This document shows, one piece after another, positions 41,698-45,255 of a stretch of 47,664 nucleotides of DNA. The notes under the pieces were generated by a model. That model did no database searches. It saw nothing but the letters and a program-made list of their open reading frames with translations, and had not been told where the DNA came from. The translations under genes were made by a program, and so were the position numbers. Source of the stretch: Acidobacteriaceae bacterium (GTDB lineage Bacteria; Acidobacteriota; Terriglobia; Terriglobales; Acidobacteriaceae). The stretch covers positions 1 to 47,664 of the forward strand of contig PLXE01000079.1 of NCBI GenBank assembly GCA_003151335.1, read 5' to 3'. The number at the start of each line of letters is the position of its first letter. Positions within the stretch are counted from its first letter, which is position 1.

Positions 41698-42306
41698 TTA
41701 CCGGAGCTTGCCCAGTTTGGCTACCGGCCAATATCCGAAGACGGCTTTGCCGTAGATGAAGCCTTCGTCCACCGGACCGAAGTCGCGGCTGTCGTTGGAG
41801 AGATTGCGATGGTCGCCCAGCACGAAGTAGCAATGTGTCGGCACTGTGGTCTCCGGATACGAGCGCACGTCTTCATAGGCGTCAGGCACGTACGGCTCGC
41901 GCAAGCGATGCCCGTTCACGAAGACCACGCCGTCTTCGATCTTCACACGGTCTCCGGCGACGGCCACCACGCGCTTGATGTAGCTCTTGGCAGTATCGCG
42001 AGGATAGTGAAACACGACTACATCGCCGGGTTCGATCGGCTCCAGCTTGTAAACAAACTTGTTGATGAAGACGCGTTCCTGATCGTCAAGCGTAGGCATC
42101 ATGCTGGTGCCTTCCACTTTGACCGGCTGATAGAGGAAGATGATGAAGAAGGCCGAGACCGCAAGCGAGATCAGCATGTCGCGCAGCCAGCCCGAAATTG
42201 CCGCCTTCATCCGCTTGGGCCCGGCAGGCGGGGCGACGGACGACGCCGCGGCATCGGATGAGGGAGGCAGAACAGTGGCGTTGTCTTCGTGGGGCACAGA
42301 GTTCAT
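41698..42306 (-). CDS. lepB: Signal peptidase I
   Basis: 202 aa. It cleaves signal peptides of exported proteins at the outer face of the inner membrane. An N-terminal cytoplasmic segment of about 42 residues is followed by one TM helix (MLISLAVSAFFIIFLYQPVK), then the catalytic serine in VEGTSMMPTL (Ser68) and the lysine in SYIKRVVAVAGDRV (Lys111). Further conserved boxes are YCVLGD-type FVLGDHRNLSNDSRDFG and GKAVFGYWP. The length is typical of the short single-TM form. It may be the first gene of a lepB-carA transcript. Confidence 0.95.
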   Translation of the reverse strand: MNSVPHEDNATVLPPSSDAAASSVAPPAGPKRMKAAISGWLRDMLISLAVSAFFIIFLYQPVKVEGTSMMPTLDDQERVFINKFVYKLEPIEPGDVVVFHYPRDTAKSYIKRVVAVAGDRVKIEDGVVFVNGHRLREPYVPDAYEDVRSYPETTVPTHCYFVLGDHRNLSNDSRDFGPVDEGFIYGKAVFGYWPVAKLGKLR

Positions 42307-42425: not shown

Positions 42426-43403
42426 TTAGGCCGTTCGTGATGACAACTCAGTGGCCTCCGCGTCGTTCACCGGCGCTCCGGTAAGCGGGAAACCGAGGCG
42501 TTTCCACTCAAAGAATCCACCCAGCAGCGGACGCACCGGGCGGATGCCGTGCTTGCGTAATTGCAGCGCCACCCGGGCGCTGGTCGCTTCGTTGGGTCAA
42601 GTGCAGAACAGCACGATCTCCACACCGCGAGTGATCTCTCCCTGCCGCGCCTCCAGTTCTTCCGGCGAGATCTGCAGCGCATGAGGCAATGTCCTGGGAT
42701 CGGTGAGCCGATCGAGCGGATGCCGCAGGTCGATGATGGTCAGCGGCTCGCCCGATTCCAGCTTGTGCTTCAATTCGTCAGGAGTGATGCGGTCCCCCTT
42801 GACCTGTTCGATGAAGCGCCGGCGCTCATTCCATCGGTAGAATACGTACGCAATCACGACTGCGACGAACAGCAGGAGCAGCGATCCCCCGAAGCGCGAG
42901 GCAGCGGCGGCAATAAGGTCAAGTTGCTTGCTGAACAGAAAGCCAAGTCCGGCGTACGCGCCGGTCCACAGCAGCGCTCCCAGAAAATCGAAGAGCACGA
43001 AGCGCGGAAAATCCACGCCCACCATTCCAGAAAGCGTGGGGGCTGCGGTGTTGAGGCCAGGAACAAACTTGCAGATGAGCAGGGTCCGCGCGCCGTATCG
43101 GGTAAAAGTGGTTTCCGTCTTGCGGACGCAGGAGTTGGGTTCCAGCGCGATGCGGCAAAGCAGGTTCAGCACCACCGCGCCGCGCCGCTTGCCAAAGAAG
43201 TACCAGAAGGCATCGCTGCACAGCGAAGCCAATGCCGGAACCAGCATGGCCAGCGCAAGATGCATGCGGCCCTGCCCGGCCAAGGCCCCGGCGGCCAGCA
43301 ACAGCGGCGTCGCCGGAATCGGCAGTCCAGCCTGCTCGATCAAGACCCACACGAACAGCAGGGCATAACCGTAATGGACTACGAACTCGAGCATCTCGGT
43401 CAT
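42426..43403 (-). CDS. DedA membrane protein fused to a rhodanese domain, interrupted by in-frame UGA
   Basis: Residues 1-200 are a DedA/SNARE-associated membrane domain (FVWVLIEQAGLPIPATPLLL; CKFVPGLNTAAPTLSGMVG). Residues about 215-320 form a rhodanese-like domain (LTIIDLRHPLDRL). The chain meets TGA at 42597-42599, after VEIVLFCT, but the same frame continues PNEATSARVALQLRKHGIRP, then LLGGFFEWKRLGFPLTG, to TAA at 42426. That continuation is the normal end of the domain, where relatives read C-x-CPNE. The UGA thus replaces one Cys codon, at residue 269 of 325. Either it is selenocysteine, or the gene is a very recent nonsense mutant; a truncated 268-aa product would lack the last third of the rhodanese. 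DedA-rhodanese fusions are common in Acidobacteriota. Confidence 0.8.
42564..42582 (-). promoter_or_regulatory. Candidate SECIS-like hairpin 3' of the in-frame UGA
   Basis: On the minus strand CAGCGCC / GGCGCTG form a perfect 7-bp stem with the 5-nt loop CGGGT. The stem begins 15 nt after the UGA and the loop 21 nt after it. From memory, bacterial SECIS elements have an apical loop about 16-37 nt after UGA with a G among its first two bases, and this one agrees. It is also in coding sequence, so chance GC-rich pairing cannot be excluded. Confidence 0.45.
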
Positions 43404-44305: not shown

Positions 44306-45190
44306 CTACCCGCCCGCGGCAGCGATGAAGTCGGCGGCCACGTCGTCGGGCTTCCAATCGTTTCCAGAATATACCTTGGCGATTTTTCCGTCGTTGCCGA
44401 TCAGCACCGTGCGCAGCCCGTGAACGATCTGCCCGTCCTTCTGGTTATAAGCCAGTCCGAAGAAGTCGGCGGCCTGGCGCACCTGTTGCGGCGAACCGGA
44501 GGCAAACTCCCAATGGGCAAAGCTGGGATCGACACGTCCCACGTAATGCTCGCCGTAGCTGCGCAGGACCGCGGGCTTGTCGTTCTCCGGATCGATGCTG
44601 ATGCTGAGCAATTGCGCCTCGCTGAATGCCTTCGGATTTTTCTGCATTTGCTGCATGACCTGGCTGAAGTTGTTGCTCGTGCGCACGCAATACTCCGGGA
44701 AGGGACAACGCGTGTAGATGAAGGTGAGCAACAGCGGTTTGCCGCGGAACTGATGGAAGTGGATGATCTTGCCACTCTGGTTGACCAGCGCGAAGTCGGG
44801 CACCTCGTCGCCGGGTTGCGGAATACGCAGCGCTGAGGTGCCGTCGCTTTCGGTGTCGCTGTGCTGGGTGAAGCTGATGTCCTGTAATTCGGCGTGATCG
44901 CTGAGCACCAGGGTCGCGTGGATGTGATCGCCGGGCGCGATGGCCTTAAAGACCCAGCTACTGTCCTTGCTCACGGTGAACGGCATGGTCATGCCTTTCA
45001 TCAGGCCGGGAATGTCCTGGTGAGCGATGGTCAACTGGCGAGCTGCGGGATCGACCGCTACCACACGGCCCTCCAACTCATAGCGCTTGGTCGCAGGGGC
45101 CTTGGAGCAGAAAGTCAGGGGAAGCACTAAAAGCAGCGCGAAGAGGCTGCTACCGTAAAGGAGATGACGGGAGCTTACCGGAAAATTCAT
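44306..45190 (-). CDS. Copper protein: CusF-like domain fused to Sco1/SenC
   Basis: 294 aa from the ATG at 45190. An N-terminal signal or lipoprotein-like segment (LLYGSSLFALLLVLPLTFC) is followed by a copper-binding CusF-type domain (about 40-115; RYELEGRVVAVDPAARQLTI, HQDIPGLMKGMTMPF) and by an Sco1-type thioredoxin fold (about 130-290). The metal motif reads TRCPFPEYC, that is C-x5-C, where classical Sco1 has C-x3-C; the distal His occurs in IVHGLRTVLIGNDG. The role is likely to be copper delivery to cytochrome oxidase or copper handling in the periplasm. AGGA about 8 nt before the start comes from a family B repeat (CTCAGGATGACAACC). Confidence 0.88.
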   Translation of the reverse strand: MNFPVSSRHLLYGSSLFALLLVLPLTFCSKAPATKRYELEGRVVAVDPAARQLTIAHQDIPGLMKGMTMPFTVSKDSSWVFKAIAPGDHIHATLVLSDHAELQDISFTQHSDTESDGTSALRIPQPGDEVPDFALVNQSGKIIHFHQFRGKPLLLTFIYTRCPFPEYCVRTSNNFSQVMQQMQKNPKAFSEAQLLSISIDPENDKPAVLRSYGEHYVGRVDPSFAHWEFASGSPQQVRQAADFFGLAYNQKDGQIVHGLRTVLIGNDGKIAKVYSGNDWKPDDVAADFIAAAGG

Positions 45191-45255
45191 GGTTGTCATC
45201 CTGAGTGCCACATGGGCCTGCGACCCACCCATAGGGATGAAAAACCTTTATAGCG

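Follow-up and report, generated by a model that had tools for sequence, protein, structure and literature searches.

A predicted selenoprotein joining a DedA membrane domain to a CxU rhodanese in an Acidobacteriaceae bacterium

A DedA-rhodanese gene with an in-frame UGA

The window analysed here, the whole stretch of 47,664 nucleotides of contig PLXE01000079.1 from the Acidobacteriaceae assembly GCA_003151335.1, carries on its minus strand a gene (42426..43403) for a DedA-type membrane protein fused to a rhodanese domain and predicted to contain selenocysteine (Sec). Its frame of 325 codons, with UGA counted as Sec, runs from an ATG at 43403 to a TAA at 42426-42428, and its sole interruption is a TGA at 42597-42599 (residue 269), after which 56 codons (PNEATSARV...SSRTA) lead to the TAA. 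The initial annotation had described a frame halted at this TGA and open for 56 more codons, and this is borne out on the minus strand.

Two domains were identified by Pfam: a DedA/VTT domain (PF09335, residues 29–154, 42942..43319, minus strand; 57 bits against a gathering threshold of 33.9) and a rhodanese domain (PF00581, residues 207–302, 42498..42785, minus strand; 32.8 bits against 22.2). The TGA lies within the latter, so a stop there would split one domain. The rhodanese loop reads LFC-T-U, with C267 (42603..42605, minus strand), which aligns to the catalytic rhodanese cysteine of 3tp9, opening the C-x-U motif two residues ahead of the UGA. Alignment further identifies a CX8C pair of rhodanese-fused DedAs, namely C83 (43155..43157) and C92 (43128..43130), both on the minus strand, in the DedA domain. 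Across 39 UGA-type DedA-rhodanese proteins, neither these two residues nor C267 and residue 269 vary.

Recurrence of the UGA codon in homologues

I searched 150 related genomes with the read-through protein; all 150 matched, many weakly or partially. Among the matches listed there are 110 homologous loci, of which three (L082, L083, L086) have neither a CxC nor a CxU motif and were dropped, leaving 107 with a readable motif. The motif codon of these is TGA in 69 and Cys in 38 (TGC in 27, TGT in 11), in agreement with the earlier claim that relatives carry Cys at this place. The UGA is shared by the orthologues of all eight same-genus genomes searched (L010-L016, L027) and by genes of further families and phyla, with UGA and Cys alternating further out. 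A sequencing error, named at the outset as a possible refutation, is very unlikely, as the identical TGA is found in separate genomes.

The multiple alignment of these homologues left out the window gene's own locus (L009), one locus with an assembly gap (L027) and one short locus (L119). A quick tree separates two subfamilies (SH-aLRT, the Shimodaira-Hasegawa-like approximate likelihood ratio test, 100): subfamily A, to which the window gene belongs, with 35 UGA and 35 Cys genes, and subfamily B, with 34 UGA and 3 Cys genes; the labels were assigned by locus number and are concordant with the tree. Over 143 labelled rows of this tree, with the active-site columns removed, 12 changes between UGA and Cys were counted. 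One gene resembling a UGA gene in a genome lacking Sec machinery (L047, genome G041) has Cys at its motif codon, and its TGA sits near the C-terminal end.

Judged by the ratio of nonsynonymous to synonymous substitution rates (dN/dS), the codons downstream of the UGA are under purifying selection. Among the eight same-genus genes, the mean ratio is 0.08 over 38 codons past the UGA (25 usable pairs), and before the UGA it is 0.136 over 150 codons (28 pairs) and 0.128 over the nearest 38 codons (26 pairs). The tail beyond the first 38 post-UGA codons is variable.

Selenocysteine machinery

A search of the same genome for Sec machinery, as the initial annotation had suggested, found selA, selB, selD and tRNA-Sec all present. 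SelA scores 559 bits, SelB 398 bits with 578 of 581 positions covered, and the tRNA-Sec 66.6 bits, with a TCA anticodon according to ARAGORN; seven weaker tRNA-Sec matches in this genome (38.7–45.3 bits) are tRNA-Ser, -Arg, -Cys and -Met by the same program. SelD (370 bits; L123, G000:C41:49821-50753) has an in-frame UGA of its own (G-U-ASK) with a hairpin after it, at what I take to be its catalytic place.

The machinery tracks the UGA form across genomes. SelB above its cut-off, or a tRNA-Sec of at least 55 bits, is found in 65 of the 67 UGA-form genomes and in 11 of the 34 Cys-only genomes (Fisher p 2e-12, uncorrected for relatedness); the 55-bit threshold was set after the scores were known, and matches of 47–53 bits in other genomes were assumed to be other tRNAs. 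With SelB alone, the figures are 59 of 67 and 11 of 34 (p 2e-8). The genomes with SelB number 109 as counted, and 110 in the tally of the listing.

A hairpin tied to the UGA

The initial annotation had also noted a 7-bp hairpin with a G-containing loop close to the UGA. It is present, at 42564..42582 of the minus strand, and starts 14 nt after the UGA: the 5' arm (42582-42576) and the 3' arm (42570-42564) form seven pairs around an apical loop CGGGU (42575-42571), with 21 nt between UGA and apical loop and a folding energy, over 40 nt counted from the UGA, of -12.5 kcal/mol. The published model of the bacterial selenocysteine insertion sequence (SECIS), as set out in a passage of a 2026 review (PMC13188914), allows a loop of 3–9 nt, a stem of 4–16 bp, a G in loop positions 1–2, a spacing of 16–37 nt and a minimum free energy of at most -7.5. 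The window hairpin, with its loop of 5 nt and stem of 7 bp, lies within all of these limits. When 60 or 75 nt of the window sequence are folded, another structure has the lowest energy.

A more specific test used two pairs, Ser275-Ala279 and Ala276-Val278, in which third codon positions pair with each other and which are therefore unconstrained by the protein. The counts were restricted to the 69 UGA genes found by protein search, because the pattern of the species scan described below fixed part of the hairpin sequence. Both pairs form in all 69 UGA genes, against 5 of the 38 Cys genes; when G[G/U] at loop positions 2–3 is added, the counts are 69 of 69 and 1 of 38. The number of genes in which all seven pairs form was compared with the expectation from synonymous shuffling: it is 23 of 35 for the UGA genes of subfamily A (expectation 0.6), 7 of 34 for those of subfamily B (expectation 0.3) and 2 of 38 for the Cys genes (expectation 0.4). 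The codon for Arg277 is never CGC in the 68 UGA genes with Arg at this place, as opposed to 672 of 1306 upstream Arg codons in the same genes.

The one Cys-form gene with both third-position pairs and the G[G/U] loop (L060) lies in a genome (G048) that has SelB and tRNA-Sec, and may represent a recent change from Sec to Cys.

Decoding of the UGA

Several observations weigh against this picture of a SECIS-directed Sec codon. A loose test by the bacterial SECIS criteria, applied to 40-nt folds, is passed by 127 of 149 UGA sequences and also by 20 of 38 Cys sequences, and was for that reason rejected as proof. The two outer stem pairs form in 41 and 35 of the 69 UGA genes and in 20 and 33 of the 38 Cys genes; being unconserved, they leave five inner pairs as the conserved core of the SECIS. 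Neither SelB nor tRNA-Sec was found in two UGA draft genomes (G032, 75% complete, and G065, 85% complete), a gap that may reflect their incompleteness. Finally, 11 Cys-only genomes possess Sec machinery, so Cys also serves at this position.

UGA could instead be read as another amino acid, such as Cys or Trp, by a variant tRNA; UGA-reading variants are known in some bacteria. I consider this very improbable here: the genome has a complete Sec set with a tRNA-Sec above the Rfam cut-off, the only UCA anticodon among the tRNAs of eight loci scanned is that of the tRNA-Sec, the tRNA-Cys there has GCA, and the hairpin tracks UGA rather than Cys codons. A reassigned code was rejected because carA, in the same window, terminates with TGA, which means that UGA also serves as a normal stop. 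More improbable still is a true stop or recent nonsense mutation, by which the product would end after FCT and the 56 C-terminal codons would be relics: the frame does mechanically halt at the UGA, carA offers an ordinary UGA stop, and a truncated product may arise under selenium shortage, but such a stop, like a pseudogene or a sequencing error, is rejected, since the UGA recurs in separate genomes (69 of 107 homologues), Cys is found elsewhere, the codons downstream are under purifying selection, and the SECIS constrains third codon positions.

Decoding of the UGA as selenocysteine by the genome's own SelA, SelB, SelC and SelD, under a hairpin in the coding region, is therefore predicted with near certainty; it is supported as strongly as sequence alone allows. 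Of the three findings that the initial annotation named as refuting it (a genome lacking Sec machinery, close relatives all lacking the UGA, a sequencing error), none turned up.

Distribution of the CxU rhodanese

A scan of one genome per species with the pattern C-[ST]-U-x-x-E-[AG]-x-S-A-R-V-A returned at least 80 loci, partly overlapping the related genomes (six sets of identical rows). In all 80 scan loci listed, the frame has a rhodanese match, and 45 of them have a DedA match as well. Among the matches listed, UGA genes of the DedA type occur in metagenome-assembled genomes (MAGs) labelled Acidobacteria/Acidobacteriota, Gammaproteobacteria, Rokubacteria, SAR324 and Eremiobacterota. The remaining loci comprise short rhodaneses that stand alone, frames truncated at a contig end, and long frames of 486–623 residues. 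Within the window's own genome, a slightly looser pattern has a single match, the window gene itself. Its closest named relatives (L198 on the tree, L159 in the scan) put the source organism in Acidobacteriota.

Of the long frames, Pfam assigned L127 to trypsin-like proteins and L162 to Na+/H+ exchangers. In six Rokubacteria proteins (L127, L140, L150, L181, L184, L197), which appear trypsin-like according to Pfam (L127) or on inspection by eye (the rest), a C-terminal C-T-U rhodanese goes with two cysteines at matching places of the protease. A second set (L134, L136, L151, L162, L179 and L194, equivalent to L262-L267, together with L271-L273 and L275) consists of CPA1 Na+/H+ antiporters of Chloroflexi and other MAGs that also end in a C-T-U rhodanese; an antiporter query was matched by L134, L136, L151, L179 and L194.

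The DedA domain and its gene neighbourhoods

DedA proteins of COG0586 are held to be undecaprenyl-phosphate flippases that need two acidic and two basic residues, according to the account of them in PMC10127716. I mapped these substrate-site residues by motif alignment, YghB itself not being in the alignment. The window protein keeps E23 and K112, and has T32 and N118 in place of the E (16 of 20) and R (17 of 20) of DedA-only rows. The same holds for the fused proteins at large, as 143 fused rows have E or D at position 23 in 136, K112 in all 143, an acid at position 32 in one and R or K at position 118 in none. The two acidic residues of the first reentrant helix and the two basic residues of the second are thus not all present in the window protein, which also scores 60.7 bits with the NCBIfam UptA profile, below its cut-off of 250. 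Undecaprenyl-phosphate flipping was rejected as a ready function, two of the four reported substrate-site residues being missing by motif alignment, and from the missing acid at 32 and base at 118, the substrate of the fused DedAs may differ from that of the COG0586 flippases.

Gene neighbours were clustered, with one representative of each cluster annotated, and named and unnamed loci overlap in these counts. Upstream of genes of the subfamily-B type stands a polyprenyl synthetase relative (31 loci) and downstream a CYTH relative (25 loci); Cys-type genes of subfamily A have a UbiD relative downstream in 9 loci. Such neighbours keep an isoprenoid lipid in play as substrate. The subfamily-B neighbourhood is a hint at lipids that does not extend to the window's own subfamily. 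Subfamily B as a whole comprises L084, L085 and L087-L121, with named relatives such as L133, L146 and L200; its genes are mostly of the UGA form and often stand beside DUF520/YajQ, polyprenyl synthetase and CYTH genes.

Downstream of the window gene lies a signal peptidase I gene (lepB; PF10502 by Pfam; 41698..42306, minus strand), which I do not claim as a functional partner; a relative of it is downstream in 5 clustered loci (4 subfamily-A UGA loci and 1 named). Elsewhere in the window, a minus-strand gene at 44306-45232 encodes a SCO1/SenC protein in which Pfam places a CusF-like copper-binding domain towards the N-terminus.

The CxU centre and a possible relay

By alignment, the active-site loop of the window protein is 2 residues longer than those of 3tp9 and 5ve3, the additional residues coming after C267, and so departs from the usual rhodanese loop length. 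Rhodaneses lead the best 50 of 225 PDB matches found by Foldseek, and these include a CoA-persulfide reductase and a persulfide dioxygenase-rhodanese. In persulfide reductases and persulfide dioxygenases with rhodanese domains, it is the rhodanese Cys that passes sulfane sulfur on to the partner.

C267 and U269 probably form a redox pair. C267 would take up an oxidant or sulfane sulfur (as a persulfide), and U269 would then attack the loaded C267 to give a selenenylsulfide, which could be resolved by a thioredoxin or, within the protein, by the C83/C92 pair of the DedA domain. Through such a cycle, the selenium centre would sense the redox or sulfane-sulfur state of the cytosol and influence the lipid-transporting domain of the same protein. 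Taken as one statement, Sec decoding, a CxU redox pair and its resolution by C83/C92 or thioredoxin, acting on the protein's own transporter domain, is the account towards which I lean, with less assurance than for the redox pair itself.

Of 146 rhodanese-fused rows, 145 have Cys at both C83 and C92; of 20 DedA-only rows, which were chosen from the match list of the genome search and not at random, 2 do. Of the CPA1 antiporters, one clade has a CxC in 11 of 11 members, 10 of them with a CTU rhodanese, while among 27 other, distant CPA1 homologues the CxC is found in none of the 26 that are readable and a rhodanese match in none. An AlphaFold model (predicted local distance difference test, pLDDT, 90.2; predicted template modelling score, pTM, 0.81) shows two helices joined by one short turn, with C83 flanking the turn on one side and C92 on the other. 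The loop between them and the segment leading to the rhodanese are rich in Lys and Arg, of which the other loops have none or one; by the positive-inside rule, the C83/C92 turn and the rhodanese-leading segment are both likely to lie on the cytosolic side.

A relay is preferred here mainly because Cys pairs occur in two unrelated families of fused transporters. Other evidence speaks against it: in L274 (55% identical), an antiporter with the CxC, none of the frames over the 2746 bases covered matches a rhodanese, and C83/C92 are retained in L082, L083 and L086, the homologues devoid of a CxC or CxU motif. Moreover, the rows used for comparison, DedA-only and antiporter, are distant and no random sample, so that the Cys pairs may mark clades rather than fusion. 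The window gene's own neighbours, lepB and carA, give no functional hint. A relay from the CxU centre to C83/C92 is accordingly proposed here as tentative, its probability having been set lower on account of L274. A wider generalization is more doubtful again, namely that DedA-type proteins and CPA1 cation-proton antiporters, as unrelated membrane transporters, each acquired the CxU rhodanese by an independent fusion, as a portable selenium redox switch that works in each with a Cys pair of the transporter, such that the cytosolic redox or sulfane-sulfur state would gate transport by way of selenium chemistry.

Two other accounts retain Sec and dispense with gating. According to the first, which I regard as unlikely though the stronger of the two, the domain is a sulfur- or selenium-transferase at the membrane, handling for instance thiosulfate or selenite, in which U269 would tune persulfide or selenopersulfide transfer. 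The rhodanese domain and its catalytic Cys are in keeping with this, as are the persulfide-handling fusions among the best 50 Foldseek matches and the link of a DedA protein to selenite resistance (Ledgham 2005, listed among the references of PMC10127716). However, a transferase leaves unexplained the C83/C92 pair of rhodanese-fused DedAs and the CxC of fused CPA1 antiporters, and the lengthened active-site loop also speaks against it. According to the second, slightly less likely account, DedA does no more than anchor the CxU rhodanese to the membrane; the rhodanese would work on outside substrates as a peroxide or persulfide reductase of general scope, and C83/C92 would have a structural or metal-binding role. 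Stand-alone CxU proteins exist, which means that CxU can act alone, and the motif-less homologues and L274 that keep their Cys pairs fit this account as well; two DedA-only relatives (L242, L261) have His at both the C83 and C92 positions, a possible sign of metal binding. Coupling of the CxU centre to the transporter is favoured over simple tethering by its fusion to two unrelated transporter families whose Cys pairs are mostly or wholly missing in unfused distant relatives.

Relation to known systems and implications

Rhodaneses with a Sec are not new in themselves. The 2026 review counts 119 selenoprotein families and subfamilies, and its Table 1 lists rhodanese form 3, NF041203, with the motif CxU (PMC13188914, in the part of the text available). 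This model (rhodanese_LYCAU, 'rhodanese-related (seleno)protein') shares with the window protein a rhodanese domain with C-x-U, but has 126 positions and a single rhodanese domain, whereas the window protein adds an N-terminal DedA domain and scores 68.2 bits, below the cut-off of 115. On the membrane side, the likeness to DedA COG0586 proteins (UptA, YghB/YqjA) and to fusions such as P. aeruginosa PA1209 lies in the VTT/DedA domain; compared with the COG0586 flippases, the window protein is without one acidic and one basic substrate-site residue in the motif alignment. PF09335-PF00581 (DedA-rhodanese) fusions are in print (PMC10127716, PMC12893004), and the passages on them mention no Sec form.

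TsoB, a rhodanese/DsbD fusion-like selenoprotein (NF045694), resembles the window protein as a Sec rhodanese within a fusion, but has two Sec in a UxxxxU motif, according to PMC13188914. Its profile gave 18–27 bits against a cut-off of 805 in 4 of 6 CxU relatives scanned, and no match in the window protein at E values up to 1. The persulfide reductases and persulfide dioxygenase found by Foldseek (3nt6, 8a56, 3icr, 5ve3) likewise join a rhodanese to a redox enzyme, but their partner domains are different and their entry titles name neither Sec nor DedA.

The initial annotation had held a Sec in a DedA-attached rhodanese to be unusual. Its novelty needs correcting: the Sec CxU rhodanese is already catalogued as 'form 3', and it is the fusion to DedA and other membrane proteins that seems new. 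The word 'DedA' was not found in the available part of the text of PMC13188914, and a literature search for DedA, rhodanese and selenoprotein together found nothing, although an earlier mention elsewhere is possible; nor did the searched literature contain transporter-fused CxU rhodanese selenoproteins (DedA searched by title, antiporters by title and start of abstract). In the Acidobacteriota genome of Occallatibacter riparius, deep-Sep reported 3 known and 0 new selenoprotein genes (PMC12013277, as excerpted). The window protein is thus best described as a transporter-fused variant of a catalogued Sec rhodanese.

Gene callers that stop at UGA end the protein inside its rhodanese domain, and recurrent membrane selenoproteins may therefore be filed as truncated DedA or antiporter genes. 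The role of rhodanese domains fused to DedA has been called unclear (in the passage of PMC10127716 that deals with them). Given a Sec beside the catalytic Cys and a pair of cysteines in the transporter domain, whether selenium controls lipid-carrier or ion transport becomes a testable question, and the coupling that I infer between the CxU centre and the transporter domain is specific enough to be tested.
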